Below are positions 4,254-39,335 of a stretch of 48,936 nucleotides of DNA, one piece after another; the first letter of the stretch is position 1, and each line of letters begins with the position of its first letter. The position numbers were made by a program, and so were the translations under genes. This stretch comes from Candidatus Doudnabacteria bacterium. GTDB taxonomy: Bacteria; Patescibacteriota; Doudnabacteria; UBA920. The stretch covers positions 1-48,936 of the forward strand of contig CAIVSE010000077.1 of the NCBI GenBank assembly GCA_903908535.1. The letters are read 5' to 3'. The notes below the pieces were generated by a model that ran no database searches, was not told the origin of the DNA, and saw only the letters and a program-made list of their open reading frames with translations.

Positions 4254-4298
4254 TGGAGCCCAAGTGCGGAATTGAACCGCAGACCTGCTCCTTACCAT
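4254..4298 (-). tRNA. 3' half of the disrupted host tRNA-Thr(GGT), from anticodon loop to encoded CCA (attR)
   Basis: Reverse complement ATGGTAA GGAGC AGGTC TGCGG TTCAATT CCGCA CTTGGGC T CCA; completes the 5' half at 17880-17917. Confidence 0.9.
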
Positions 4299-4487
4299 CA
4301 ATAACCCCGAAGCAATTTTTGCACTTTGTGCAATAATTACAGGGAGAAAATGATTTTTTAGTTCACAAATATATACCGTTGCTAGGGCCTATTTATAACC
4401 AGTTATATTATAGACAAAGGAGTCTAAAAAAGCACTGCAACAACATATTTAATTTTTAAATGGGCTTACGGCTTAATTTTACATAAT

Positions 4488-5429
4488 TTACTTGAATAAT
4501 GCAACCCGCAGAGCGTTAAGGCCAGACTGCAAATTAGTGTCTGGCAACCATCGCAAATACACATTTATTGTTGTCCGTACGTCTTTGTGCCCCATCATAG
4601 ATGATAACCGCAGCAAGTCTTTTGTGGCCACGTAAAAATTTACGGCAAAGGTGTGGCGAAACCTATGAAGATGGCATTTTAGTCCCGTCGCTTCTTCCAG
4701 TTTTTTTATGAAGTGTTTGCCCCCGTGTTCCGTAAAGTTCCTATCTTCGGAGCTGGAGACCCATAAGTATGGAGTGGTTAGGGTTTTGCGGGCTTCCAGG
4801 TAAGTTCCCAGGTGGCTCATTAAATTTTCTTCAATTGGGACATAGTGGGTAATACGGGACTTTGAGATTTCCGCCCGCACGGTTAAAATTTTATTTTTTA
4901 AATCAAGGTCATCCAGCCGTAAACCGAATAATTCTTCTTTACGAACCCCAGTCATGCTTAGGAAATAAATCATGGTGTTATTTCGGATTCGCTGCAAAAG
5001 ATTCTCCCAAACAATATTGCGGCCCACGGCTAGGCAAATTTTGTCAAACTCCTCCAGTGTGAAAGCCCTTCTATCCGTGTACGAAACTTCTGGGTGCGGA
5101 ATTTTGTCAAAAGGGTTAGCGGTTATATGTCCTCCAATAACCAGCCAATTAAAGAATGAGCTTAACTTCCCCCTTATTGTGGATATGCTTGAATTTTTTA
5201 ATTTGCGGACTATCAGATGTTTGCCGACCTTCCTTTCCCGTGAGTTTAAGTAAGCAAAAAGATTTACCATTAGTTCGGGATTTAAATCTGCGGCCTGAAT
5301 GTCTGGCTTAAATTCAGTCAACAAGCCAAAATTATCCCGATAATTTTTTACGGTTTTTGGGGACTTCCCTTCCAAGTTTTCCGCCTGATTTACAAAATCT
5401 TCAAATAATTGTTTTAAGTTTTTTTCCAT
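4488..5429 (-). CDS. tyrosine recombinase/integrase adjacent to attR
   Basis: SAM-like N-terminal; catalytic pattern TGVRKEEL...HLHRFRHTFAVNFY...LSSMMGHKDVRTTINVYL. Confidence 0.92.
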   Translation of the reverse strand: MEKNLKQLFEDFVNQAENLEGKSPKTVKNYRDNFGLLTEFKPDIQAADLNPELMVNLFAYLNSRERKVGKHLIVRKLKNSSISTIRGKLSSFFNWLVIGGHITANPFDKIPHPEVSYTDRRAFTLEEFDKICLAVGRNIVWENLLQRIRNNTMIYFLSMTGVRKEELFGLRLDDLDLKNKILTVRAEISKSRITHYVPIEENLMSHLGTYLEARKTLTTPYLWVSSSEDRNFTEHGGKHFIKKLEEATGLKCHLHRFRHTFAVNFYVATKDLLRLSSMMGHKDVRTTINVYLRWLPDTNLQSGLNALRVALFK

Positions 5430-5595
5430 TGGGAACAGGTCTTTCTTCCAGGTTCTCCAGGCCTTTTTCTACGAATTTATTTATCAGGTCTAGGACTTTC
5501 GCCTGCTCATAGGCAGCTAAAATTTTTACACGCTTGTGTAATTTAGCATCCAGCCTAACCTGTTTTGTGGGGTCGCTTCGTAATTTTGTTGACAT
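5401..5595 (-). CDS. small ribbon-helix-helix-like protein (possible excisionase/regulator)
   Basis: KQVRLDAKLHKRVKILAAYEQAKVLDLINKFVEKGLENL; overlaps the integrase start. Confidence 0.6.
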   Translation of the reverse strand: MSTKLRSDPTKQVRLDAKLHKRVKILAAYEQAKVLDLINKFVEKGLENLEERPVPNGKKLKTII

Positions 5596-5924
5596 AAGAG
5601 TTTATAACCGCTTCTATTTCCTTTCATCCCCTCCTTCGGCTCATGGAAAGCCTGCTTCTACAATCAGTCAGCATGTCCTTTACAAAACGTTTGGCAAATA
5701 AAACGGGAAAAATAGGATTTGCCACGGCTTTTGGTTATTCACGCTGAATTTTTGTCTGACTAAAAGCGGACTAAAATTACTATTGCCGAACGGGTGAAAG
5801 TCCCCCGTTGTCAAGCGGTCAGACAGAGCGGGGACAATTATCCATTCGCCAATAGTTTGCGGCTGGTTTTTTTCGGGAGACTAACCGACGACTCCCTTCC
5901 ATGAGGTTGTTGCTTGGGAAAATC

Positions 5925-6251
5925 CAAACAAAAAAACCTAAAAACTACCCATATTCTAATTTTTAGAATACAAATAATTTTTAGGTTTCTCGGCGTTCAA
6001 CTGGCCGCCCTAAAATTTTTACGCTATACACCATTGCAGCCTGTCTGCTCGGATGTTTGACGCCGTTTAGCTTCAATGATTAAAGCTCGCGGTGGAAGGT
6101 TATAGTGTCTCCACTTGGACTGTTTTTAGTCCGTCACCCGCTTTTGTGGCAGGTGTTTACCTAAAGGCTCCGATTATTCCAGGGACGAGCCTAAAAGGGT
6201 TCCAAATATCGTAAAACTTATGAAATTTTAAAAAATCTTCTACTAATAACT
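5925..6251 (-). ncRNA. stand-alone structured ncRNA of ~325 nt, unknown class
   Basis: Promoter TTGACA-17 nt-TAAAAT (minus strand, 6258-6286); serial stems AGGCTC/GAGCCT, CACCTGC/GCGGGTG, GGACT/AGTCC, GTGGA/TCCAC, AGCTTTAA/TTGAAGCT, GGCGT/ACGCC; terminator AACCTAAAAA...TTTTTAGGTTTTTTT; no convincing ORF. Confidence 0.7.
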
Positions 6252-6311
6252 AAGGGTATTTTAAACCGAAGCCGAAAAACTGTCAAGAACAAATTACCAG
6301 TTTTCGTGGTA

Positions 6312-6340
6312 TTGCCAAAATAAGCTAAAAGAGTTAATAT
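6312..6340 (+). promoter_or_regulatory. putative promoter for the secreted-protein/SIR2 gene cluster, divergent from the ncRNA promoter
   Basis: TTGCCA-17 nt-TAATAT. Confidence 0.55.
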
Positions 6341-6400
6341 TAAAGCACAATTTAATCAGTTTGCCTAACCCCACAGCGGTGCTATGGGCATGGCAAAAAC

Positions 6401-6503
6401 CCACTCTCATGCAGCGACGGTCGTCTGTCTTGCTTTAGCCATGAGAGTGGTCTCTGCCCGAAAGGGCAGATGGAGCAAGCGGGCGGCCTTTTTTGATGCC
6501 CGC
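6401..6503 (+). promoter_or_regulatory. structured 5' leader of the 6517 gene
   Basis: CCACTCTCATG/CATGAGAGTGG, TCTGCCC-GAAA-GGGCAGA and GCGGGC/GCCCGC inverted repeats with an internal T-run, immediately before ATG 6517. Confidence 0.55.
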
Positions 6504-6516
6504 AGAAAGACTATTT

Positions 6517-7890
6517 ATGAAAAAACTTCTATTGACGATTTTAGTAACAATTTTACTGGCTCCTACTTTGGCTTCGGCTGATGATTTTGAAGGCTTAAGT
6601 TCTTTGGGCAGCCAAACAACCACAACGACTCCAAGTCCTATATCTTTTTACTATGGGGATAACAACCCTTCAACAAATATTACGTTTAAAACCAACTGTA
6701 AAAAATTACCGTCGGTGTCAATTGCTGGATTGCCGGCAGGTGCTTTCACTCCTTCTGTTAGCACTAACCCACGTTCACTCGGTTCCTCCGTTTTGTTTGT
6801 AACAGTTTCATTCGGCGGCGCGTTACTTGAAGAGGGGCAATTTTCAATAAGCATAACCCTAACAGATGCCTGTAATCCAAATTTAACACAAACCACTTTA
6901 TACAATGTAAAAGTTTCAAGCACCTTTGATGTAACAAGTAATTACGTTTTGCCATCTGGATATACCGGCCTTGCCTATAACGCGGCCATCAATTTCCAGT
7001 ATAAAGGAATATATACCCCCTCCGTAAGTTTTACTGGATTACCTGCGGGGATGACTCTTAGCAAGGTGGTGCAAAATTCCCCCAATACCTCCGGCATTAT
7101 TCCCGTGCAGTCTTACTCTGTGATTTTAAGCGGCACCCCAACACAGTCTGGTTTCTTTAACCCACAACTATTTATAACTGACCCGACAACTGATAACACG
7201 GACACATATTCTGACAATTTGTCGCTTACAATTATCCAAAGCTCTAATGCTCCCACAATCCAGGCTTCCACCACTCCAGTCACTAGCAGCCAGCCTGGAA
7301 ATATAACCGACCTGGCAGGGACAAATATAAGCTCTAATGGCACGGTATATATGATTACCGCCAGCGGCCAAAAACGGCCGTATACTTCCGCTGGAGCCTT
7401 CCTGTCTTATGGTTTTAATTCCTGGGCTGACGTTGTTACAGCCAGCTCGGCCGATTTAGCTTTACCAACTGGAAATTTTATTCCACCACGGGACGGGAAG
7501 ATTATCTGTTCCAACAAGGGAAGTGATACGGGCACTTGTTATTTAATTACCAACAGCGAAAAGGCCGCCTTTACCAGTTCGGCGGTATTCACAGGTTTAG
7601 GGTTTAGTTTTTCTAATTCTTTGAGCGGTGACGTTTCTTTCCTAAATTCTGCTCCCAATATAAATTCTGTAACTCAAACTCACCCAGAAGGGGTTTTGTT
7701 AAACAAAGGCGGGACGATTTACCTTGTCGGCAACAATGGCTTGCTGGGAGTTCCCGATGTAAACACTTTGACCTCTTGGGGTTACACTTCCAGCGATTCA
7801 GTGCTTGCTAATTCGGCCGACAATGCTTTGCCGCAAATAGGCGTTATGCCCGCTCATACCGCTGGGGCTTTAAATCCTTTTGGAAACTGA
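6517..7890 (+). CDS. secreted surface protein with putative Ig-like domains and a conserved C-terminal repeat domain
   Basis: Signal peptide MKKLLLTILVTILLAPTLASA; LPSGYTGLAYNAAINF-type Ig-like repeats; C-terminal ASGQKRPYTSAGAFLSYGFNSW shared with the 11823 ORF. Confidence 0.8.
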   Translation: MKKLLLTILVTILLAPTLASADDFEGLSSLGSQTTTTTPSPISFYYGDNNPSTNITFKTNCKKLPSVSIAGLPAGAFTPSVSTNPRSLGSSVLFVTVSFGGALLEEGQFSISITLTDACNPNLTQTTLYNVKVSSTFDVTSNYVLPSGYTGLAYNAAINFQYKGIYTPSVSFTGLPAGMTLSKVVQNSPNTSGIIPVQSYSVILSGTPTQSGFFNPQLFITDPTTDNTDTYSDNLSLTIIQSSNAPTIQASTTPVTSSQPGNITDLAGTNISSNGTVYMITASGQKRPYTSAGAFLSYGFNSWADVVTASSADLALPTGNFIPPRDGKIICSNKGSDTGTCYLITNSEKAAFTSSAVFTGLGFSFSNSLSGDVSFLNSAPNINSVTQTHPEGVLLNKGGTIYLVGNNGLLGVPDVNTLTSWGYTSSDSVLANSADNALPQIGVMPAHTAGALNPFGN

Positions 7891-7905
7891 TATCAAAAAT
7901 ATTTT

Positions 7906-9036
7906 ATGAACTTCCAGGAATTACAATCAAAGTGGTGGTATAGACTTCTAAAGATTATTTTTGCCTTGGCTTTTGTGGTCGGTGTGATTTTTGCATTTGT
8001 CGCCATTAGCCAGTATTTACCATCTAAAAGCACTCCTGCCGCAAAATCTATATTGAACTTCCAACAATTTTCACAATTACACGACGATGGGTTAAGTGTT
8101 CAACAGATTGTAGATTTTAACCACGTTCTCTATCCCTCATCTTCCAGCACTCCTTCCCAGTCCTCGGTAAAGACACCTTCTTGGCTGACTTACTTTGAAA
8201 TTTTAATTGGAGCTATACTGGTTGAAATAATATTTTTTTGGCTGATTCGTGGAGCGTTTTTGTATATTTTTGTTGGAAAAAAAACTTTAGCCACCAATGG
8301 CGCACTTTTTGGCGCAAAAAAAGCGACTAAAGTAGTTTTGGTGTTGGTTGGTGTTGCGCTGCTTGTTTTTGTAATTGTACGTATTTATTCCACAGTAAAA
8401 AATTACGGAGTAGTAAGTAATCCCGTTATGCCGCCTTCCCTTCAAATGCCAGTTACTGTTTTACCGACTAACGACGCTATTAACGGAAGCGGGACTTACT
8501 CCGATAAATACCCTCTAACATTTTCCGTAACGGGGAATAGCCAACTTACGAGTGAATTGGCCGCTTACGGGGTAATATATAAGGTCTGGCTGGGACTAAC
8601 AGGCTGGACTGGTTCGGGCAGTATCGGGGTAGACGGTAGTAGTGTTGTAAGTTTACATCCTGTTGGCGGGGGTGCCGATTATGGAGAGAGGGTTTCCTAT
8701 TCTGAAATACCCGCCTGCGCTGGATGTATGGAAGAAAACGCCGCACCTTACTTTTCAAGTGCAATGCAGACATACCAAGAATACGATGAAAAAAGTTTTG
8801 GTGTTCCTATAACCGTACCGCAAGGGCTAGAAGTTACGCCTATTTCATCCACGTTAGTAACTTACACATTGCCCGACGCTGACGGTCTGTCAACGCTCGG
8901 CGTGGTCTATTACCTTCCTGGTAGCCAAACAGTCAATGCTTATTACACAGATGCTGAATTTGTTTTGCCTGTGGGAGATACGGATTTATTAAACTTTTTG
9001 GCGCAGAATTTTATTCAGCAGGAAGGGTTAAAATAA
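7906..9036 (+). CDS. hypothetical membrane protein
   Basis: Open frame with three hydrophobic segments (approximately aa 15-35, 95-115 and 140-165). Confidence 0.7.
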   Translation: MNFQELQSKWWYRLLKIIFALAFVVGVIFAFVAISQYLPSKSTPAAKSILNFQQFSQLHDDGLSVQQIVDFNHVLYPSSSSTPSQSSVKTPSWLTYFEILIGAILVEIIFFWLIRGAFLYIFVGKKTLATNGALFGAKKATKVVLVLVGVALLVFVIVRIYSTVKNYGVVSNPVMPPSLQMPVTVLPTNDAINGSGTYSDKYPLTFSVTGNSQLTSELAAYGVIYKVWLGLTGWTGSGSIGVDGSSVVSLHPVGGGADYGERVSYSEIPACAGCMEENAAPYFSSAMQTYQEYDEKSFGVPITVPQGLEVTPISSTLVTYTLPDADGLSTLGVVYYLPGSQTVNAYYTDAEFVLPVGDTDLLNFLAQNFIQQEGLK

Positions 9037-9128
9037 AGTTATTGCGCCAACCTGGTTGGCAGGCCCAAGGCGTCCGGCTCGTGCTTTGACTATAACCCGA
9101 CGATGGGCGGTAGTTAAATTATAATTTT

Positions 9129-9323
9129 ATGGTAAAAAAACTATTGCTAATTATGAAGCCCAGTACAGGGGAAACAGCGGAAGAATTTGCCGCCCGTACT
9201 TGGCAAAACTTGGCAGGCCGAGGTTTAGCAAAAGACGGAAAGCTGGTTTCCCAGGGCGAAATGGGTAAAATTTTAGACAAAGAGCAAACGCTAAAAAATC
9301 AAGACGGCGTTATTCTAGGGTAG
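9129..9323 (+). CDS. small hypothetical protein
   Basis: 64-aa open frame MVKKLLLIMKPSTGETAEEFAARTWQNLAG. Confidence 0.45.
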   Translation: MVKKLLLIMKPSTGETAEEFAARTWQNLAGRGLAKDGKLVSQGEMGKILDKEQTLKNQDGVILG

Positions 9324-9377
9324 GAAGAGGCGGGCTGATTTGTATAATGGCCGAAAAGGGCTATAATATAAGCGGAA

Positions 9378-10412
9378 ATGGATTTTAAAATGGGGGTAAT
9401 TAAATATATGCCAAAACCAGTAATAATCTTGGGGGCAGGTGCTTCTTATGACTACATTCACAGAGGCGATAGTAACCTTCCGCTTAATCACGAGCCTCCT
9501 TTAGCGAATAACCTTTTTGATAAAAGGTTTGAAGGGATTATTAAGCATTTTCCGCAAGTGATGAACCTTTCAGCCAGCGTGGCCTCGGCTTCACGGCAAG
9601 GAAAAGGATTGGAAGAACTCTTTACAGAGATTCAGGCCAAAAGTTCGCAGAATCCCGAAAGACTGCAACAGCTCATAGCCTGCCAGTTCTATCTGCAAAA
9701 ACTTTTTAGAGATATTACCAGCAATTATGGGAGCCAATCCCAAAATAATTACAGCGAGCTTATTAACCAGATTAGGGACAATGGCGGCCAAGCGTGTGTG
9801 GTAAATTTTAACTATGACTTGCTGTTTGAGCAGGCTACTGGGTACAAATTAGAAAATGTTGGCGATTTTGTCGCCCACCCTATCAAAATAATTAAGGTTC
9901 ACGGGGCCTATAACTGGACTAAAGTTTTGCGGAACGCTTTTCGCATCCCAAGCGACGGTGACACTTACGGCTTTTTGATGAACAACCCAGAACATCTACT
10001 AAAAAATCCATCAGAAGATACAGACCCAATTTATATTCAGGACGGCTACGGTATGACGGATGGCAGTGGAGATAAATACTTCTTTTATCCCTGGATTGCA
10101 ATTCCCATTGCAGATAAAAATACCTTCGTTTGCCCGCCCGACCATCTGGTCGTATTAAAGGAAGCGTTGCGGCAAACCGATAGAATTTTAATTGTGGGAT
10201 GGAAGGCGGCAGACCAACACTTAGTTAAGCTAATGGGAGATGTTGTTCAGCAGGCTGTAAAAATAATTATTGTTAGCGGTTCAGGTAAAACCGCAAGGGA
10301 AATCCAAGCTAAATTATCGGGAGTAATAAACGCCACTTTTCCAAACTCGGTAGCTACGTTCAGCGATTTCGTGGGTAGTCAAATTTGCCAAGAATTTTTT
10401 CAAACCGAATAA
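9378..10412 (+). CDS. SIR2-like domain protein (possible NADase effector); start may be 9408
   Basis: VIILGAGASYD nucleotide-binding motif, CVVNFNYDLLFEQ and KVHGAYNW (candidate catalytic N and H), C-terminal ILIVGWKAADQHL. Confidence 0.8.
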   Translation: MDFKMGVIKYMPKPVIILGAGASYDYIHRGDSNLPLNHEPPLANNLFDKRFEGIIKHFPQVMNLSASVASASRQGKGLEELFTEIQAKSSQNPERLQQLIACQFYLQKLFRDITSNYGSQSQNNYSELINQIRDNGGQACVVNFNYDLLFEQATGYKLENVGDFVAHPIKIIKVHGAYNWTKVLRNAFRIPSDGDTYGFLMNNPEHLLKNPSEDTDPIYIQDGYGMTDGSGDKYFFYPWIAIPIADKNTFVCPPDHLVVLKEALRQTDRILIVGWKAADQHLVKLMGDVVQQAVKIIIVSGSGKTAREIQAKLSGVINATFPNSVATFSDFVGSQICQEFFQTE

Positions 10413-10413
10413 T

Positions 10414-11226
10414 ATGCCCTACCTAAGTTTGCCCTTTGCCAGAAAGACTTGGATTGTAAACGCTACAAAGTTTTGGACCACGCTGGCCTTAATCTTCGCC
10501 CTGCTTGCTCTTGATGTAGTTTGGTTAGTTGTCAGGGCAAAGACTTTAAATTTTCGTATCTTTGTAGTCACCCCTCCCCTGAAAGCCGTAATATCTTTGC
10601 TAATAATTTTGGCCATAGTTGTTCTGTTCATTTGGTTTATGGTTAAAGTGGATGAGCGACTGGACGCCAGGATGGAAAAGTGCTTGGCCAATTATGAACA
10701 CGCCCGCAAAGGTGATGACGGGGAAATCCTGGTACGTAAATATTTAAACCAATATTTGGACGAGAAACAGTACAAAATCTATCCTAATTACAAGATTCCC
10801 GCAGTAAAGGCGGATTATGACTTCGTAGTTGTCGGCCCCAAGGGCGTAATTTTAATAGAAGTTAAAACTTATGACGTCCATACAGTCTTTACCTACGATA
10901 AAGCATATGGCCAATCAGCGGATGGCAAATTATTTTCACTCTGGGATATTCGGGAAAAAGTTAAATGGCGGGCTGGGCAGTTAGAGAGGTATTTGGCCGA
11001 ACACGGCTTGGATAATATCAACGTACGCAAGGTGGTCCTGTTTGTGAATCTCAAATCGGTGGAAATCCAGGGCGGCTGGAAGAATAAATATAAGGTCTAT
11101 GTGGCCCAGGGTATTCCCGCATTTGCTGATTACCTTTTTCGCCAACAGCCAAGCCCCCAGTTTACGCCCGAATATGTTAAACGAGTTTGCGATGCCTTTA
11201 ATATTCAAACTACACCAGCTGTATGA
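10414..11226 (+). CDS. membrane-anchored NERD-domain (nuclease-related) protein
   Basis: Two N-terminal TM segments, then GDDGEILVRKYLNQYL...ADYDFVVVGPKGVILIEVKTYD. Confidence 0.8.
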   Translation: MPYLSLPFARKTWIVNATKFWTTLALIFALLALDVVWLVVRAKTLNFRIFVVTPPLKAVISLLIILAIVVLFIWFMVKVDERLDARMEKCLANYEHARKGDDGEILVRKYLNQYLDEKQYKIYPNYKIPAVKADYDFVVVGPKGVILIEVKTYDVHTVFTYDKAYGQSADGKLFSLWDIREKVKWRAGQLERYLAEHGLDNINVRKVVLFVNLKSVEIQGGWKNKYKVYVAQGIPAFADYLFRQQPSPQFTPEYVKRVCDAFNIQTTPAV

Positions 11227-11807
11227 TTAACGACATCTTGGAACAAACCGCAGAGGACTATTTTCGGCATTTGGGATATTTCACCCAGCACAACGTTAAG
11301 TATAAGCCGAACAAGAAGGGGCCTGCTTACGCCGTCCATTCCGACATAGATATAATCGGCATTAACCCCACTAAACGTGGTATAGAGCGGGTTGTGGTGG
11401 TAAGCTGTAAGAGCTGGCACGGCGGCATACGGATAAAAGGTTCCCTAGATGCCATAAAAAGGAGTTTAAGGAGAACAAGGAAGATTTACCGTGAAGTAGC
11501 CCAGCCGTACTGGTCAAAGGCTTTAAAAGATAAAGTCTACGAGCTGACTGACCAAAAAACTTTCGTCTTCTATTTTTGTTGTACCAGGTACGATAAACGG
11601 CATAGGGAACTGTGGGAGGGTGACAAAGAGTTTCGGAAAAATCTGGCTGGCTGTAAGATTAAACTACTGGACTTTGAAGAAATGGCCACGGCCATATGGC
11701 CCGAAATGCACATTATTACACCTTCCAACAGCGAACTCGGCAGGCTGTTCCAGTTCATCCACTTTAGCGGCGGGAAATTACATTATAAGGATTTAATTAA
11801 AAAATAA
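11223..11807 (+). CDS. PD-(D/E)XK-like nuclease-fold protein
   Basis: SDIDIIGINPTKRGIERVVVVSCKSWHGG resembles a restriction-endonuclease-like core (the usual acidic residue before the Lys motif is Ser); 4-nt overlap with the upstream gene. Confidence 0.6.
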   Translation: MINDILEQTAEDYFRHLGYFTQHNVKYKPNKKGPAYAVHSDIDIIGINPTKRGIERVVVVSCKSWHGGIRIKGSLDAIKRSLRRTRKIYREVAQPYWSKALKDKVYELTDQKTFVFYFCCTRYDKRHRELWEGDKEFRKNLAGCKIKLLDFEEMATAIWPEMHIITPSNSELGRLFQFIHFSGGKLHYKDLIKK

Positions 11808-11822
11808 TTAAGCCAAAACTTT

Positions 11823-13205
11823 ATGAAAAAAATTTATGTCAGCCTCTTCGTTCTTGTGCTTTGCTTGGCCTTCTATGCGCCCAATGCTAAAGCAGAAAAT
11901 CAAGCGTTTCAAATAATAACAACATCGCCTTTGCCCAATGCTTCCCTTGCTGATTATTATTCAGCTACCATTAAATATATTTATAGCGGCATTTGTGACC
12001 CTATTGTTACTACTCAAGGACTACCGCCGGGCATCAATTTAGGAAGTGGCTCAGTAAATGCTACTGATTTAGGCTCAACCACTCTAGTGGGTGCTCCAAC
12101 ACAAGAGGGGGTCTATACGGTTAAGTTTTATTTAAGTGATTCTTGCGGTTCCACCTTAGAACAAGATTTTAGCCTAACAGTAGTAAGTTATGTTCAAAAA
12201 GTTACAACTACTCAGGCAGGGGGCGCAACTACTGGTTTTCCTTACAATTCTACAATTAGCTTTGACTGGTTTGGCCCCACTGTCCCCGCAACAATAGTTT
12301 CAGGTTTGCCCCCAGGAATTGCCTCAAGCATTCCAGTTATGACCCCTGTTCAACAGGCTTCGGTTAGTGGCTTTTCGGACGCCATAACTTTGACCGGCAC
12401 GCCAACCCAAGCTGGTGTCTATAATGTTTTGGTTACAGTAACTGACCCTACTGCAAGTACAACTTTAGATTATCCTTTATCCATAGGCGCAAATCCATAT
12501 GCGTCCAATAATCCGCAACCAGCCGCTAGTCCAACATCCGTTCCAACGCCAATAGTTTCGAATCCCGCCATAACTAATCAAACAACCCCCACAACCGTAA
12601 ACCAAACATCAACCAGCGGCACAGACCCCGCCGGCACAAATGTTATCTCTAACGGTATAGTCTATGAAATAACCGCCAGCGGCCAAAAACGGCCATATAC
12701 TTCGGCTGGAGCTTTCTTGTCTTACGGTTTTAACTCCTGGGCCAATGTAGTTACAGCCAGTTCCGCCGATTTAGCTTTGCCCACGGGGAATTTTATCCCG
12801 CCACGTGACGGGAAGATTATTTGCTCCAACAAAGGAAGCGATATGGGAACTTGTTACCTAATTACAGATAGCAAAAAAGCCGCCTTTACCAGTGCGGCCG
12901 TGTTTACAGGTTTAGGATTTAGTTTCTCCAATTCCTTGAGCGGTGATGTTTCCTTTTTACCATCTGCCCCAAATATCAGCTCTGCCAGCCAGTTGCATCC
13001 TGCGGGCATTTTAGTAAATAAGGGCGGCACAATTTACCTCACAGGCGATAATGGACTGCTTGGTGTGCCAGATATGGCCACACTGACCTCTTGGGGTTAT
13101 TCCTTAACCGATTCTGTCCCCGCCAATGCCGCCGATTCAGCTACGGCGCAAAGCGGCGTAATGACAGCTCACACGGCTGGGGCGTTGAACCCATTTGGTA
13201 ATTGA
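11823..13205 (+). CDS. secreted surface protein, paralogue of the 6517 ORF
   Basis: Signal peptide; near-identical C-terminal ~190 aa (ITASGQKRPYTSAGAFLSYGFNSWANVVTASSADLALPTGNFIPPRDGKIICSNKGSD). Confidence 0.8.
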   Translation: MKKIYVSLFVLVLCLAFYAPNAKAENQAFQIITTSPLPNASLADYYSATIKYIYSGICDPIVTTQGLPPGINLGSGSVNATDLGSTTLVGAPTQEGVYTVKFYLSDSCGSTLEQDFSLTVVSYVQKVTTTQAGGATTGFPYNSTISFDWFGPTVPATIVSGLPPGIASSIPVMTPVQQASVSGFSDAITLTGTPTQAGVYNVLVTVTDPTASTTLDYPLSIGANPYASNNPQPAASPTSVPTPIVSNPAITNQTTPTTVNQTSTSGTDPAGTNVISNGIVYEITASGQKRPYTSAGAFLSYGFNSWANVVTASSADLALPTGNFIPPRDGKIICSNKGSDMGTCYLITDSKKAAFTSAAVFTGLGFSFSNSLSGDVSFLPSAPNISSASQLHPAGILVNKGGTIYLTGDNGLLGVPDMATLTSWGYSLTDSVPANAADSATAQSGVMTAHTAGALNPFGN

Positions 13206-13226
13206 TGGTTATTAAAGTTTTATAGT

Positions 13227-14222
13227 ATGGCCGTCCTGTTTTTCCAAAATAAGTTTCATCCAAAAGTTAAGTATGGCCCGAATTTTGATTTAGAGGCCAG
13301 TTTCCTTTCTGAAAAAGGGGTGGCTTTTGAAGGGGAAGGTGGATTTTTTGCCATCAGTATGAACTTTGGAGGAGACCCTTATTTTGCACCAGTTCCAAAC
13401 CCTCCCGAAATTTCTTTAAAGGATTGGGTTTTAAAAAGTTTTGGGGATGGTAATCCGACAGAGCACGGGACTGTCCCTGGTGTATGTTATAAGCGGATTT
13501 GGAGGCCTGGTATAAATAACTATTATAACCGTGGTTTTGAAAAAACAATTTCGCAGAAGGAACTTACCCAATCATCCGTTTCCTTGCAGATTTTACTGGA
13601 TAAATTAGAGAGTTTGTTTGAATTTTTAGAGCCGAGCGAGCAAAATGAATCCGCATATGGTCATAGAATAAGAGAAATTATTTTGTTAGCTTCTATGGAA
13701 GTTGAATCTGCTTGGTCTGCGGTTCTCAGGGATAATGGTTATACATCGGAGCAGGATTTTAATACCAAGGATTATGTTAAACTTCTAAACCCAATGTTTT
13801 TGGATGGATATAAATTATCTCTCCAGCAATATCCCCAATTTAGCCCTTTTAGTCCTTTTGAAGGCTGGAACCCCGCTGCCCCGACCCATTCTTTAATTTG
13901 GTATGATGCCTACAACAAAATAAAACATGACAGAGAGAAAAACCTGCCTTTGGCTACATTGCAAAATGCTATTACGTCAGTTGGTGCAGCGGCGGTAATG
14001 TACAGAGCGCAATTTGGATTTAATAGACCATTTACTTGGACCCAGCAACCAAAACCGCCTTTTATAGACAGTATATTTTCGCTAGAGACGAGTGACGGAT
14101 TCAAAAAATACGAAAAAGATTTTTATATATCAAAATTAGGCCTTCGCCAGTCTGGTTCCACTATTGAGCTTGACCATGGTCCCGCCCAAAACTGGACAAT
14201 ACTAAATTATAAATTTGATTAA
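13227..14222 (+). CDS. hypothetical protein
   Basis: 331-aa open frame; no family recognised. Confidence 0.65.
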   Translation: MAVLFFQNKFHPKVKYGPNFDLEASFLSEKGVAFEGEGGFFAISMNFGGDPYFAPVPNPPEISLKDWVLKSFGDGNPTEHGTVPGVCYKRIWRPGINNYYNRGFEKTISQKELTQSSVSLQILLDKLESLFEFLEPSEQNESAYGHRIREIILLASMEVESAWSAVLRDNGYTSEQDFNTKDYVKLLNPMFLDGYKLSLQQYPQFSPFSPFEGWNPAAPTHSLIWYDAYNKIKHDREKNLPLATLQNAITSVGAAAVMYRAQFGFNRPFTWTQQPKPPFIDSIFSLETSDGFKKYEKDFYISKLGLRQSGSTIELDHGPAQNWTILNYKFD

Positions 14223-14278
14223 CGAAAAGCTACTTCCTGTAATTAGACTTATGGGAAGTCGGAGCGTATTTTGTATAA

Positions 14279-14316
14279 AAAAACCGTAGAACCTTTTAGA
14301 GGAACTACGGTAGGTG
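14279..14316 (-). terminator. intrinsic terminator downstream of the M50-like gene
   Basis: Reverse complement CCGTAG...CTACGG followed by TTTTTTT. Confidence 0.7.
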
Positions 14317-14339
14317 TTTGGCTTGATGGTCGGTGATGC

Positions 14340-15158
14340 CTACTTCCCGAACAGCCAGTGAAAGTCCTGTAACGTAGAAGTAATTAGGTCGTAGACGAAC
14401 AACCCAAATATTATCAACATTCCAGCCAGTCGGTACAGAGCCAGCAACAAGCGTGGGGCCTTAATCTTTTCTAATGACGTTTCTATAATACGTCCACCGT
14501 CCAGCGGCAGAAATGGCAGCGTGTTCATCAATCCCAAACAAAGGGACAAAGTGCAAGCCATCATCACCCCTTTGGTAAAGTTCAGGTTGTAATGGTAAAC
14601 ATCGGCAGCAAGTTTTAAGTATCCGCCGTTTGACTTAAATGCTTCGGGGTGAAAAACGGAGGCGTGGGCCATAAGAGCTAATAAGCACAGCCCCAAGAGC
14701 GGAACCCCGTATCGGCAGAATTGTTTCTTTAGCGGCAGTAAAACTAAGGCCATAACTGCACAGGCTCCAGCTATTCGGTAGTCGGCCATTGTCAGTTCGC
14801 AGACAGCCAGAACCACGAGTGGATAAAAGATACTCCCCCAAACACCCGCCCCGTAAATCACGGAGGATTCGCTGTAAGGCAGCCACCGTTGTATTTTCAG
14901 GCTGTCCCTGGTTGAGTTCTTGACGTAAGCCATAAACGGCAGGATGTTGAGGTAAAACGGCGTGTTGGGTAGCAGCCAAGGAATACTAAGCCGCAGCCGA
15001 GGCCAAGATGTGATTGGTACCCCAAAGCCCCATTCTCTGACCCTGAGCCCACGTTTTAACATCTCACGGGCGTGTTCATACTCGTGGAGCAGAACAAAAA
15101 TAACCGTAACCAAAATACACGTCACCAAGCCAAGCATATTTGTCCCCCTTTGACTCAC
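14340..15158 (-). CDS. M50 (site-2 protease-like) membrane metalloprotease
   Basis: LLHEYEHA (HExxH) in the first TM region and NTLPFLPLDGGRII second motif. Confidence 0.8.
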   Translation of the reverse strand: MSQRGTNMLGLVTCILVTVIFVLLHEYEHAREMLKRGLRVREWGFGVPITSWPRLRLSIPWLLPNTPFYLNILPFMAYVKNSTRDSLKIQRWLPYSESSVIYGAGVWGSIFYPLVVLAVCELTMADYRIAGACAVMALVLLPLKKQFCRYGVPLLGLCLLALMAHASVFHPEAFKSNGGYLKLAADVYHYNLNFTKGVMMACTLSLCLGLMNTLPFLPLDGGRIIETSLEKIKAPRLLLALYRLAGMLIIFGLFVYDLITSTLQDFHWLFGK

Positions 15159-15227
15159 AATTGTACTGCATTTATAGGGGTTCTGTCAAGCGGTTTTAGG
15201 GTGGCTTATATTATTAAAAGGAATTTT

Positions 15228-15614
15228 TTAAACATCCTGGTCCGCACTGTTTTTTGCTGAATAATCTGTAATGTTAATTATGAAGGGTTGACTTTCGGCG
15301 TTACCCAACTCTTGTCGTGGGCTAAACTCTTTCTTTAGTTTGCGTTCCAAATACCATTTCGCTTCGTTTGAGTTGTCCAAACTCTCCACAATTGTTTGAC
15401 GGGCTTTTAAAATTGGCTGTTGCCGCAGTCCGTCAATTTTGTCGGAAAATTCGGGTTTTTCTTTCAAAAAATTATAGAAGGTATCCCTGCTGATTCCCGC
15501 AAAGGAACAGGCTTCTTCGGCCGTTGCGTCAATGGCAAAAGCCGTCTCCAGTTTTCGGACAACGGTTGCCGTCATCACCGATGGCCTGCCAACTTTTTTA
15601 GTTTTAGATTTCAT
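15228..15614 (-). CDS. small helix-turn-helix protein, terminase-small-subunit-like or recombinase accessory
   Basis: VGRPSVMTATVVRKLETAFAIDATAEEACSFAGISRDTFYNFLKEKPEF; directly abuts the recombinase gene. Confidence 0.6.
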   Translation of the reverse strand: MKSKTKKVGRPSVMTATVVRKLETAFAIDATAEEACSFAGISRDTFYNFLKEKPEFSDKIDGLRQQPILKARQTIVESLDNSNEAKWYLERKLKKEFSPRQELGNAESQPFIINITDYSAKNSADQDV

Positions 15615-16520
15615 TTAAAAGTTCACCCCCTGAAAGGTTGCGTAATAGCGGGGTAAGTCCGCTTTATGCTTTATATTGTCGTTGTATACCTGTAACATCT
15701 CCAGGCTTTTGTGTCTGGTGTATTGGGCAACTTCCAACAAGTCGCCTTTATAAGTTTTAATTAACATGGTAGTAAAGTAGTGCCTGAGGCCGTGGACACA
15801 TTTTGTAATATTGAGTTCGCCAAGCAGGCATTTTACAATTTGTCTTAACGCCCTGGTTGTCAGCCTGTGATTTATGCTGTTGTTGCTCCTGCTGGTGAAC
15901 AGCGGGCCACTGCCAACCTTATTGGCTTTAGCATAAATCTTTAAATTTTTAACCGTTTCGGGATGCAGGTTGATAATTTCCTTGTCATCTCTCCCCTTTC
16001 CCCGCACAAAGGCTACCCCACTTACAAGGTCTAAATCTTTTACGTCCAGCCTAGCAATTTCTATCTGCCGTAATCCTTGCAGGGTTAAAAGGCTAAAAAT
16101 GGCCTTTAGGCGTGAGCTTTCGGGATTTTCGGGTAAAGATTGGAGTTTTTGCGAAACGCTTTGGATTTCGGCTTCTGTAAGGCCGTCTCGTTTATGCTTC
16201 TTGCTTTGGTTAAAACTTTTTACGTTTTGGGTGATGTCTGCGGGTAAAGCCCCTTGTCGGTTAAGCTCCTTTAGGAAGATTTTGGCTGCCGCCAAATATT
16301 TGTTTTTAGTCGCTGTGCTGTAATCGTTACGACCGTCCAAATACCGTTTGAACTTTAAAAAGCTGTTGCGGTCAAAGCCTTCCCTTTGGATGAAGCCCAC
16401 GAACATACCAATGCGGCACTGGTAATCTTTCCGTGTGCCTTCGCTAACATCTAGGTTTTCAAAAATCCTTGCGGCTTGCTGTTCGGGGTTGCTTATGACT
16501 TGTAGAGTTTTAGTGTCCAT
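15615..16520 (-). CDS. tyrosine recombinase
   Basis: LTLQGLRQIEIARL...CVHGLRHYFTTMLIK...VAQYTRHKSLEMLQVYND. Confidence 0.9.
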   Translation of the reverse strand: MDTKTLQVISNPEQQAARIFENLDVSEGTRKDYQCRIGMFVGFIQREGFDRNSFLKFKRYLDGRNDYSTATKNKYLAAAKIFLKELNRQGALPADITQNVKSFNQSKKHKRDGLTEAEIQSVSQKLQSLPENPESSRLKAIFSLLTLQGLRQIEIARLDVKDLDLVSGVAFVRGKGRDDKEIINLHPETVKNLKIYAKANKVGSGPLFTSRSNNSINHRLTTRALRQIVKCLLGELNITKCVHGLRHYFTTMLIKTYKGDLLEVAQYTRHKSLEMLQVYNDNIKHKADLPRYYATFQGVNF

Positions 16521-16524
16521 ATGA

Positions 16525-17418
16525 TTATAAATTATTTAATGGGTGTTTGGTCATTTGCGAACGTAAATGTTCGGCACTGGCTGACAAATAAATTGTCGTG
16601 GTCTTAATGTCCGAGTGTCCCATCATTCGGGAAAGGCTGTAAATGTCGCATCCGCCTTCCAGCATCAGCGTGGCAAAAGTGTGCCGCAGCTTATGAATGG
16701 TAAACTTAATTTTTGACGCTTTAACCATAGTTAGCAAGAGTCTTTTTAAGCCGCTGTCCGTGAATCCTTTATCGTGGTTCAGGGAGATAAAAAATTCTGG
16801 GCAAGTCCTTTTTAGCCGCTTCCGCTCTTCCAGGTATTTTTGCAGACTTTCCGCCAGCTTATAGCATATCGGCAGGATTCTATCCTTACCGCCTTTCCCC
16901 TGCCGAATAAATATGGATAAATTTTCCAGGTCAACGTCGGTATACTTTAAATTTAGCAGTTCCTTTTTCCTTATGCCCGACAGGATGAAGGTGGAAAATA
17001 TGGCGTGGTTCCTGTAACGCAGGAATTTATAAGAATACGGGAAATTGTACGAGACTTCCAAAATTTTCATCGCTTCCTGCCGAGTCAGTTTTGGCGGCAG
17101 TCTTTTCTCCAGCTTTGGGATTTCTATGTCGTCCGTGGGGTTAAACTGCATATAACCCTCTTTCACGCACCACCTAAAGAATACGGCTAAAGATTTGTGG
17201 TAGCAGATGAACGTGTTGGGCGTCCAACCTTGGGAAGTCCTGCCGTAGTAGAATAATTCCCGTGTATTGTCTTTGGTGACCTGCTCCAATTCCTCTATGC
17301 CCGCAAACCTCGTATAATAATTTATTACCTGTTTGTAGCGTTTTAATGTCGGTTTTGAATAGCCTTTTATGTACTGCGAATAATCGCAAAACTTTTGGGC
17401 TAATGTCGCTATTTGCAT
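16525..17418 (-). CDS. tyrosine recombinase
   Basis: LSGIRKKELLNLKY...IHKLRHTFATLMLE...LSRMMGHSDIKTTTIYLS. Confidence 0.92.
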   Translation of the reverse strand: MQIATLAQKFCDYSQYIKGYSKPTLKRYKQVINYYTRFAGIEELEQVTKDNTRELFYYGRTSQGWTPNTFICYHKSLAVFFRWCVKEGYMQFNPTDDIEIPKLEKRLPPKLTRQEAMKILEVSYNFPYSYKFLRYRNHAIFSTFILSGIRKKELLNLKYTDVDLENLSIFIRQGKGGKDRILPICYKLAESLQKYLEERKRLKRTCPEFFISLNHDKGFTDSGLKRLLLTMVKASKIKFTIHKLRHTFATLMLEGGCDIYSLSRMMGHSDIKTTTIYLSASAEHLRSQMTKHPLNNL

Positions 17419-17422
17419 ATAA

Positions 17423-17450
17423 AAAACACTCCAACGTTAATTGCAGTGTT
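17423..17450 (-). terminator. intrinsic terminator just after the element tRNA and just before the recombinase start
   Basis: Minus strand AACACTGCAATTAACGTTGGAGTGTTTTTT. Confidence 0.6.
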
Positions 17451-17456
17451 TTCTAC

Positions 17457-17741
17457 TGGAGCCCAAGTGCGGAATTGAACCGCAGACCTTCTCCTTCACT
17501 TTTACCTCAATTTCTAACTGGCTACCTGGCCGCCAGTTGTTATATAAGGGTTAGACTGTATCTTACGCTTACCGTAAAGGTTTAGCGTTCCTTGTCAGTC
17601 GTTCGGGCGATTGCTCGCCACGGTCTTGGCCATTGCGGGCTATTAACCGTAATTCGGATTTCATTAAAATGTTTCCATTTTAACGGGCAAGCCTCTTGTA
17701 AGGCCACCATGGAGATGCTCTACCAACTGAGCTACTTGGGC
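17457..17741 (-). tRNA. element-borne tRNA-Thr(GGT) interrupted by a group I intron-like sequence
   Basis: 5' exon 17706-17741 (GCCCAAGTAGCTCAGTTGGTAGAGCATCTCCATGGT), 3' exon 17457-17496 (AAGGAGAAGGTCTGCGGTTCAATTCCGCACTTGGGCTCCA); joined they form a perfect 76-nt cloverleaf with CCA. Confidence 0.9.
17497..17705 (-). other. group I intron in the tRNA anticodon loop (between positions 36 and 37)
   Basis: 5' exon ends in T, intron ends in G; candidate P1 GGU/GCC with terminal U.G; hairpin TTAAAATG-GAAA-CATTTTAA; P6 GGCGA-GCAA-TCGCC; P7 GACTG/CAGTC preceded by J8/7-like AAGATA; P8 ACGCT/AGCGT; P9 AACTGGC/GCCAGTT. P3 not clearly assigned. Confidence 0.85.
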
Positions 17742-17879: not shown

Positions 17880-17917
17880 TTACCATGGAGCTGCTCTACC
17901 AACTGAGCTACTTGGGC
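17880..17917 (-). tRNA. 5' half of the disrupted host tRNA-Thr(GGT) (attL)
   Basis: Reverse complement GCCCAAGTAGCTCAGTTGGTAGAGCAGCTCCATGGTAA, then element sequence TAAACAGG. Confidence 0.9.
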
Positions 17918-25231: not shown

Positions 25232-26881
25232 TCACTGCGCGTCGTCCGGAGCTTCGGGGCTCTGCCGGATTTCCGCCTGGCGCAAATTCATCCTGCTAAT
25301 TTCTCTCAGTTGGCTTTCGCCGCCCTCAAGCATTAACGGAATGTATTTGACCACAGCGTCGCTCCATCCGTAAATGAAGCGCACTCCAGGTTCGTTAGCT
25401 GGTGCAACAGCGTGGCTGTAAGGGGCGAGTTGGACCACAAAGGCTTGCGCCTGAGGATTCACAACTGCCCGATACTGCCGCCACAACGAGATGAACGAGT
25501 CCCGGGTTTGGAATCCCGAGCCATACGCCCAATCTTCGTTGTCGGTTAGGCCCACAAACGCATCCACTTTGACCTTGCGGTCAAGTAAACGCTGAATGGG
25601 GCTGCCGAGCGCCGTGCCGCCACCACCGAGCTCATGGATTTTTTCCGCCGTGACCATAACATCGTCACGTCCGGAAAGTCCATGGTCAGCAATGACACAG
25701 GTTTCGAACGGGAGCGAAATCGCCCGACCTTCGATTTTACGCAACAGAGCTCCGGTAAAGATGCCGGCGATATCAATGCACTGCGTCTCTCCCCTTTCGG
25801 AGATTGGCGTAGTGCTCATTGAACCGCTGACATCAACACCTAAAGCTACTGTCGCGTTGCCGAAAGAAGGCATGTTGGCAAACGAAAGATTCAACGCAGC
25901 GCGGAGGGTATCCGCGATTCTGCTGTCAAAACCTTCGCTGCCCACATACTTTCTCCAGGCATCAAAGAATCGGAACGGCAAAACTTTGGAACGCTCCACG
26001 GCTTGCTGGTTGGAAAGTTTCTCCACAGCGCGCTGGACATTGGTCTCTTTTTGGAACACGCCGTGACGGGTAAAGGTCACGAGATTCCGCAAAAGGTTCA
26101 TGTACGGCGCTTGGTAAAGCAACTCTTCCCAAATTCGCGGCGTCATGTGCTTGACGGCTGGCACCACGACTTCAAACGGCAACCGCCCCTTTTGAATCAG
26201 GGCAATGGCTTCGTCTTCAGTCGTGGCCAACTTTAAAGCCACATACGCACGAATTTGCGGGTTGAGCTCGGGATTACTCCCAAGCTTACCCGAAACCAAC
26301 CAACCGAGGCGTTCGGCAACTGCGTCGTCGTCCGTACGCGGGTGGGTCATGCGCACAATGTCTCGAAGTGACACGCCCTCTGAAGCGGCCGAACCGTACT
26401 TCAGGGTGTGGTACTCGGACATTTGCGTCAGCCACTTCGCGACGGATTTAACAACGTAGCCGCCAAGGCCCTTTTTGCCGGCCACCTGGCCCGAGAGCAA
26501 CGCGCCGGTAAAGACGCGCAGATCGTCGGGGATGCAGATAACCTGGTCAAAAATGGTCTCAAAAGGCTCGCGGGTTTTGCCGCGGCCTCCGCTAAGCTCT
26601 GCTAGCGCCAACACGTTTTGGTCTTTGATCAGACCCCGGTTACGGCCATAGACAATGGCTTTGGCCAGGAATTCCGGATCTTCGGACCGGGCTTTAAGGA
26701 TGGCATCCTTCCACTCCGCTTCAAGCTCGCGCTTGCCGGCGTAAAAGGTGTCCCCAAAAATCCCAACGGTTAGCAGCTGTAGGACGCGCTCCCGCGGGGA
26801 GCGACTAAAGGTTTGGCCGCCTTCGTAGTTGCCTACGTTGGTCTGGGCCGCTGTCAGTGCGGAAAGCGTCGTCTGGTTCAT
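25232..26881 (-). CDS. TROVE-domain Ro60/Rsr-like RNA-binding protein with vWA domain
   Basis: TROVE repeats (FLAKAIVYGRNRGLIKDQNVLALAELSGGRG; PFEVVVPAVKHMTPRIWEELL) and MIDAS-like DVSGSMS in the C-terminal vWA domain. Confidence 0.9.
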   Translation of the reverse strand: MNQTTLSALTAAQTNVGNYEGGQTFSRSPRERVLQLLTVGIFGDTFYAGKRELEAEWKDAILKARSEDPEFLAKAIVYGRNRGLIKDQNVLALAELSGGRGKTREPFETIFDQVICIPDDLRVFTGALLSGQVAGKKGLGGYVVKSVAKWLTQMSEYHTLKYGSAASEGVSLRDIVRMTHPRTDDDAVAERLGWLVSGKLGSNPELNPQIRAYVALKLATTEDEAIALIQKGRLPFEVVVPAVKHMTPRIWEELLYQAPYMNLLRNLVTFTRHGVFQKETNVQRAVEKLSNQQAVERSKVLPFRFFDAWRKYVGSEGFDSRIADTLRAALNLSFANMPSFGNATVALGVDVSGSMSTTPISERGETQCIDIAGIFTGALLRKIEGRAISLPFETCVIADHGLSGRDDVMVTAEKIHELGGGGTALGSPIQRLLDRKVKVDAFVGLTDNEDWAYGSGFQTRDSFISLWRQYRAVVNPQAQAFVVQLAPYSHAVAPANEPGVRFIYGWSDAVVKYIPLMLEGGESQLREISRMNLRQAEIRQSPEAPDDAQ

Positions 26882-38940: not shown

Positions 38941-39335
38941 AGTTCTTCAAGTGAGATCCCCGTACCACTTCATCGGGTACGGGACACAGTCGGCTACCAA
39001 CCGATGAACTTGAAACAAATAGTAATTAACCTTAAAGTGTTCTAGAGCCACTTTTTGGTGAAAAGACTCTGTATTAGTCGGCCTAAAGGCCTCCGGTGCA
39101 GGGTAAACTGGGACGGAAACGTCTTCCCATTAGATTAGGGAGACCCCAGGATTTGGTCCTATCATTTGTCAACCGATAAATGATGGATCATATCCTGGGG
39201 TTTTGTGTTAGATATTGGAGAGGACAACCCAAAAAGGGTTTTCCTCTCCAACGTCCAACTGCGTTGGACTGCCTCACTTTTCCAACGAATCCTCGACATC
39301 GGAGTGAATCCGACGCCTCGGAACTATAATTAACC
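38941..39335 (+). promoter_or_regulatory. long structured thrS leader RNA
   Basis: TTCAAGT/ACTTGAA enclosing CCCGTACC/GGTACGGG and TCGG-CTACCAA-CCGA; large stem CCCCAGGAT/ATCCTGGGG; TTGGAGAGGA.../...TCCTCTCCAA; GTCCAAC-TGC-GTTGGAC. Confidence 0.65.

Follow-up and report, generated by a model that had tools for sequence, protein, structure and literature searches.

Upstream of the integrase genes in a mobile element of Candidatus Doudnabacteria lies a promoter followed by a heavily folded stretch, which we tentatively read as the 5' leader of an RHH-Int1 operon that is attenuated and possibly releases a stable RNA of ~325 nt. We give this reading somewhat less than an even chance. It is slightly favored over an independent small RNA because the structure continues to the RHH and Int1 genes, because no other good promoter was found, and because a related element shares the layout. 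The leader and the small RNA would not contradict each other, provided that the RNA left by termination is both stable and active. By its promoter and its fold statistics this orphan RNA is real; its status as a gene is unproven, and it is without a class.

Results

The window, by which we mean the whole stretch of DNA analysed (48,936 nt), is contig C77 of a 1.04 Mb genome, in a phylum where the relatives have genomes of ~0.5-2 Mb, a range consistent with Patescibacteria. The features discussed below are collected in Table 1.

Table 1. Positions of the promoter, the folded stretches, the neighboring genes and the element boundaries in the window.
Feature	Position	Strand	Remarks
Left att	4254..4293	.	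displaced 3' half of tRNA-Thr
Int1, tyrosine recombinase	4488..5429	-	catalytic R, K, H, R, H, Y columns all present
64-aa protein, weakly RelB/RHH-like	5401..5595	-	first downstream gene; RelB-like antitoxin E 0.04, below cut-off
Second structured stretch, hairpin to RHH gene	5596..5924	-	z -3 to -4 on the minus strand, -2.7 on the plus strand
27-bp A/U-rich hairpin, 3-nt loop, U-run	5925..5989	-	predicted terminator/attenuator; fold z -8.5 (5925-5991)
Structured core, six-hairpin ring closed by 14-bp helix	6003..6191	-	minimum-energy fold, -63.3 kcal/mol
Promoter TTGACA-17-TAAAAT	6258..6286	-	sigma-70-type, 11/12
LOOT RNA (RF03000)	6362..6488	+	divergent leader of secreted-protein gene
Int2, tyrosine recombinase	16525..17418	-	63% identity to the G084 and G097 relatives
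Right att	17457..17496	.	3' half of intron-bearing tRNA-Thr(GGU), adjoins Int2

The near-consensus promoter that a preliminary description had reported is well supported, as five sites with at least 11 of 12 matches occur on the two strands of the whole window, compared with an average of 0.2 in ten shuffled versions. Transcription would be expected to start near 6251 on the minus strand. The core that follows has a fold z-score of -4.3 on the minus strand, where none of 200 shuffles was as stable, and of -1.6 on the plus strand. Windows of 190 nt from the same sequence gave a mean z of -0.7 and reached -4.4 at the 2.5th percentile; the core by itself thus belongs to about the lowest 3% of windows, is not unique, and alone would be no proof of an RNA. 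The six or more consecutive hairpins described earlier were recovered as six, inside the closed ring. The absence of a convincing ORF was likewise borne out, since the stop-to-stop frames inside the stretch reach 52 aa at most and none appeared gene-like by eye. A cluster of four TTTAGG motifs in the RNA is a weak feature, equalled in 3 of 200 shuffles and chosen after the fact.

The RNA was also said to end in a double-hairpin terminator. A hairpin with a U-run is present, but it is one hairpin and not two; its near-perfect pairs span ~5989-5933 and the U's continue to 5925. Judged from its predicted fold, it is probably an intrinsic terminator or attenuator. A simple terminator scan, with its requirement for G-C pairs and its maximum count of 20 pairs, did not list it.

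Structure does not end at this hairpin. The stretch between it and the RHH gene contains a strong long hairpin (~5780-5860, minus strand), and when the region 5586-6300 was folded as a whole, the minus strand gave z -7.1 (40 shuffles) or -8.1 (20 shuffles) and the plus strand -3.9, the corresponding values for 45 other windows of 715 nt being -2.0 on average and -7.9 at best. The entire stretch from promoter to gene is therefore more striking than the core alone. No promoter with at least 9 of 12 matches was found in the ~330 nt scanned between the hairpin at 5925 and the RHH gene. Since the same-strand structure passes the hairpin and such a promoter is absent before the RHH gene, the simplest reading is that the promoter, the structured leader with its attenuator-like hairpin, the RHH gene and Int1 form one transcription unit. 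The start of the RHH gene is overlapped by a 33-codon frame with a strong Shine-Dalgarno sequence (AAGGAGGGG) before it (5526-5657, minus strand); this frame is a possible leader peptide or a possible case of translational coupling.

The element that carries these features is 13.2 kb long (4254-17496) and is enclosed by a 40-nt direct repeat (98%), both copies of which correspond to the 3' half of a tRNA-Thr(GGU) gene. Because this repeat brackets the region, the preliminary description was right to place the RNA inside the element, and also in noting that it is divergent from the cluster of secreted-protein and SIR2 genes. Besides Int1 and Int2 there is a third tyrosine recombinase (15615-16520), and the cargo includes two related secreted proteins, a NERD-domain protein, an M50 peptidase and a SIR2-like protein, for which all matches came from PADLOC (best E 5e-8). 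The two secreted proteins (6517-7890 and 11823-13205, both on the plus strand) are 50% identical and share a near-copied segment of 300 nt with 82% DNA identity. Elsewhere in the window we observed a Ro60/Rsr-like protein (25232-26881, minus strand) with a TROVE remnant and a vWA domain, scoring 114 bits against NCBIfam RNA-bind_Rsr, which is below cut-off, as well as a very stable fold on both strands at 39141-39329 (z -14.8 and -10.3) that is probably a large inverted repeat.

Relatives of Int1 at 33-37% identity were found in G021, G097 and G084, a weaker one in G327, and more in G429 and G437. Halves of a tRNA-Thr split in the anticodon loop flank the element in three cases (window, G084 and G097), with the displaced 3' half (ATGGTAAGG...) past Int1 and the tRNA-Thr next to Int2. 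The window element and those at L365 and L366 represent one family, with a tyrosine recombinase at each end and the anticodon loop of tRNA-Thr(GGU) as its target. The window and G084 also have a hairpin with a U-run between the tRNA and the Int2 start codon.

Among these relatives, G084 (L038) has a promoter TTGACA-16-TAGAAT at 8803..8776 on the integrase strand, also with 11 of 12 matches, and ~135 nt past it a hairpin of -28 kcal/mol (8632-8582) with a U-run to 8575. The Int1 start codon, at 8560, lies 15 nt past the end of the U-run, which leaves no space for another promoter; if the hairpin terminates, G084 Int1 would thus be expressed by read-through alone. By analogy, this layout supports a leader in the window as well. 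However, the comparison should be interpreted with some caution, since an alignment of the two leaders was no better than shuffles and revealed no significant sequence similarity, so that the layout is the sole link between them. The pair of near-consensus promoter and terminator is not clearly repeated upstream of Int1 in G097 and G429, the other two relatives in which the region before Int1 is long. A motif GTAAACA..TGCCACAAAA is common to the window RNA (6141-6160, minus strand) and the G084 leader (L038 8640-8665, minus strand) and absent from the other loci compared; it was spotted by eye, is possibly due to chance and, given the alignment result, is not claimed as homology.

Searches for a class were negative. 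The preliminary description did not recognize the class of the RNA, and no Rfam 15 family (including GOLLD, ROOL, OLE, tmRNA, RNase P, 6S and group I/II introns) matched 5596-6290 at its gathering score; at E up to 5 the matches to the same stretch were limited to miRNA, snoRNA and lncRNA families, all of them below cut-off and at chance level. BLAST against 145 relatives returned only A/T-rich noise, and BLAST of the whole region against the family and the phylum (~380 genomes) returned no homologue. A covariance model of the core (R1) matched only itself in 379 phylum and 49 order genomes, and nothing at the loci of the related integrases, where its filters were switched off, or at 61, 84 and 40 further loci, among them viral integrase and LOOT-bearing loci; being built on one sequence, R1 has limited reach and could miss distant relatives. 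No homologue was found in the phages and plasmids searched, nor in viral contigs probed by integrase, cargo proteins and exact motifs, where motif matches stop at the seed. As no search gave a homologue, no RNA class is claimed; the suggestion of a new mobile-element RNA class would need homologues.

Several particular identities were considered and rejected. The stretch lacks the tRNA-like domain and tag frame by which ARAGORN recognizes a tmRNA, and the tmRNA of this genome is elsewhere (L032). A type III toxin-antitoxin RNA is contradicted by the lack of a repeat family in the region and of a ToxN-like toxin among the neighbors, and a TnpB/IscB guide RNA or retron by the lack of TnpB, IscB and reverse transcriptase among the neighbor proteins scanned. 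An attP site was dismissed, the att repeats being at 4254 and 17457.

Two further structured sequences of the element deserve mention. LOOT RNA scored above cut-off in 43 of 191 relatives, with copies noted in L022, L024, G097:C2:81290-81418, G084:C1:268879-268997 and L374 (10100-10215), and four elements (window, G084, G097, G429) have it upstream of Int1, at a distance of ~1-4 kb. The copies that we read (window, L022, L024, L037, L038) stand directly before the start codon of MKK... proteins, mostly secreted, and the 3' end looks switch-like, with a GGCC..GGCC-TTTTTT terminator against an overlapping hairpin. The other is an intron-like insert of ~210-250 nt, found at an identical point of the tRNA-Thr anticodon loop (ATGGT^AAGG) at 17497-17705 (minus strand) in the window and at ~14460-14710 (minus strand) in L038 (G084), with the common core ACGGTTAA..AGACCGTGGCG..CGCCCGAACGACTGACAAGG..ATACAGTCTA. 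In appearance these inserts are divergent group I introns, although Rfam gave the window copy only 13 bits (E 0.94), and intron and element share their insertion point in the tRNA-Thr. A second orphan tRNA-Thr 5' half (17882-17917, minus strand), 176 nt upstream of the first, suggests an older insertion or a decayed tandem copy.

Discussion

The layout of an attenuator leader is present in the window: a promoter, a structured leader and a terminator-like hairpin lie upstream of RHH-Int1 on the same strand. The promoter match, the folds, the hairpin, the gene order, the absence of a second good promoter and the layout in one relative are computed observations. For transcription, termination, read-through, and the switch with its signal, we infer the following course. 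Transcription would start near 6251, and the nascent RNA would form the ring of hairpins. Most polymerases would halt at the A/U hairpin and its U-run near 5925, leaving the stable RNA of ~325 nt, while read-through on some signal would yield a longer structured leader joined to the RHH-integrase mRNA. The integrase would thus be made just occasionally, and the leader would keep it in check. As a switch, the 3' strand of the helix that closes the ring (AUUUUAGG, ~6016-6008) might re-pair with the 5' arm of the terminator (CCUAAAAAU, ~5985-5977). In predicted folds a nascent transcript of 290 nt adopts this alternative pairing and the full-length transcript adopts the terminator; the switch draws no support from conservation. 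Two points count against the leader: the stability of the terminator hairpin greatly exceeds that of the proposed antiterminator, and not finding a consensus promoter within 330 nt says little.

The closest competitor, a serious one that we nevertheless hold to be somewhat less probable, is a stand-alone small RNA gene of ~325 nt that ends at the 5925 hairpin and acts in trans or binds a protein, with the RHH and integrase genes using an unrecognized promoter of their own. Such a gene would account for a complete unit of promoter, RNA and terminator without an ORF, and for the bias of the core fold to the minus strand. However, the structure goes on downstream on the same strand, a separate promoter for the next genes was not found, and none of the searches gave a homologue, which one would not usually expect if an RNA of this size had a function in trans. 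The preliminary description had proposed a stand-alone non-coding RNA gene that may be a new mobile-element RNA; what stands is that the RNA is probably transcribed, structured, non-coding, unclassified and located in a mobile element, whereas the structure past the terminator, the absence of a second good promoter and the hairpin before the G084 integrase fit a leader or attenuator at least as well as a separate gene.

It is also conceivable, if quite unlikely, that the stretch has no function as RNA: it would then be intergenic DNA that has decayed or is structured by chance, its promoter being real and its terminator serving to insulate the integrase. The unexceptional rank of the core alone would fit this, as would the absence of conservation, other elements of the family differing in sequence here; yet the fold of the whole region is strand-biased and matches the best of the 45 control windows, and chance would not be expected to produce an 11/12 promoter. 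Slightly less probable still is a single large ornate RNA of ~650-690 nt (6251 to ~5600) that would work as an RNA particle, with the A/U hairpin as a structural arm instead of a terminator. The strong full-length fold (z -7 to -8) speaks for it, as does the setting, a mobile element at a tRNA gene like those of GOLLD and ROOL (PMC12286853); against it are the lack of a homologue, the U-run directly after the hairpin and the Rfam result, with no match to GOLLD, ROOL, OLE or other families beyond chance-level ones at E up to 5.

A broader pattern is conceivable, although we consider it improbable enough to be offered as speculation: a fast-evolving structured RNA of ~690 nt could control, or assemble with, the integrase module of dual-recombinase tRNA-Thr elements, its layout and place being conserved but not its sequence, so that each element has its own version. 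If the leader is real, these bacteria with small genomes control the excision and integration of mobile elements through RNA folding in a leader, and this would provide a testable mechanism in a group where, to our knowledge, almost nothing is known about the control of mobile DNA. A better handle than the orphan RNA is the element family itself, with its two recombinases, its insertion in the tRNA-Thr anticodon loop, its LOOT-led secreted proteins and its SIR2/HEPN-type cargo, which also places LOOT RNA in a biological setting.

Among known RNAs, the nearest in position is LOOT RNA, which is likewise structured and leader-like; it shares the element with the window RNA, whose promoter is 76 nt away. 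However, it is on the opposite strand and differs in sequence and structure, and the window RNA does not match RF03000. GOLLD and ROOL have been proposed to work as RNA particles. They are large, heavily folded ornate RNAs of mobile elements, often near tRNA genes (PMC12286853). The window RNA resembles them in being heavily folded and in lying in a mobile element near a tRNA gene, but is shorter and has neither an Rfam match nor homologues. In Tn916, attenuation controls a mobile element, and terminators in leaders gate its expression (PMC9632896). The likeness is in the proposed arrangement, a terminator-bearing leader ahead of the recombination genes, where read-through would switch the element on (PMC9632896). 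The element described here differs in that it lacks both a tet(M)-like gene and a demonstrated leader peptide, and in that the leader is directly upstream of the RHH-integrase genes.
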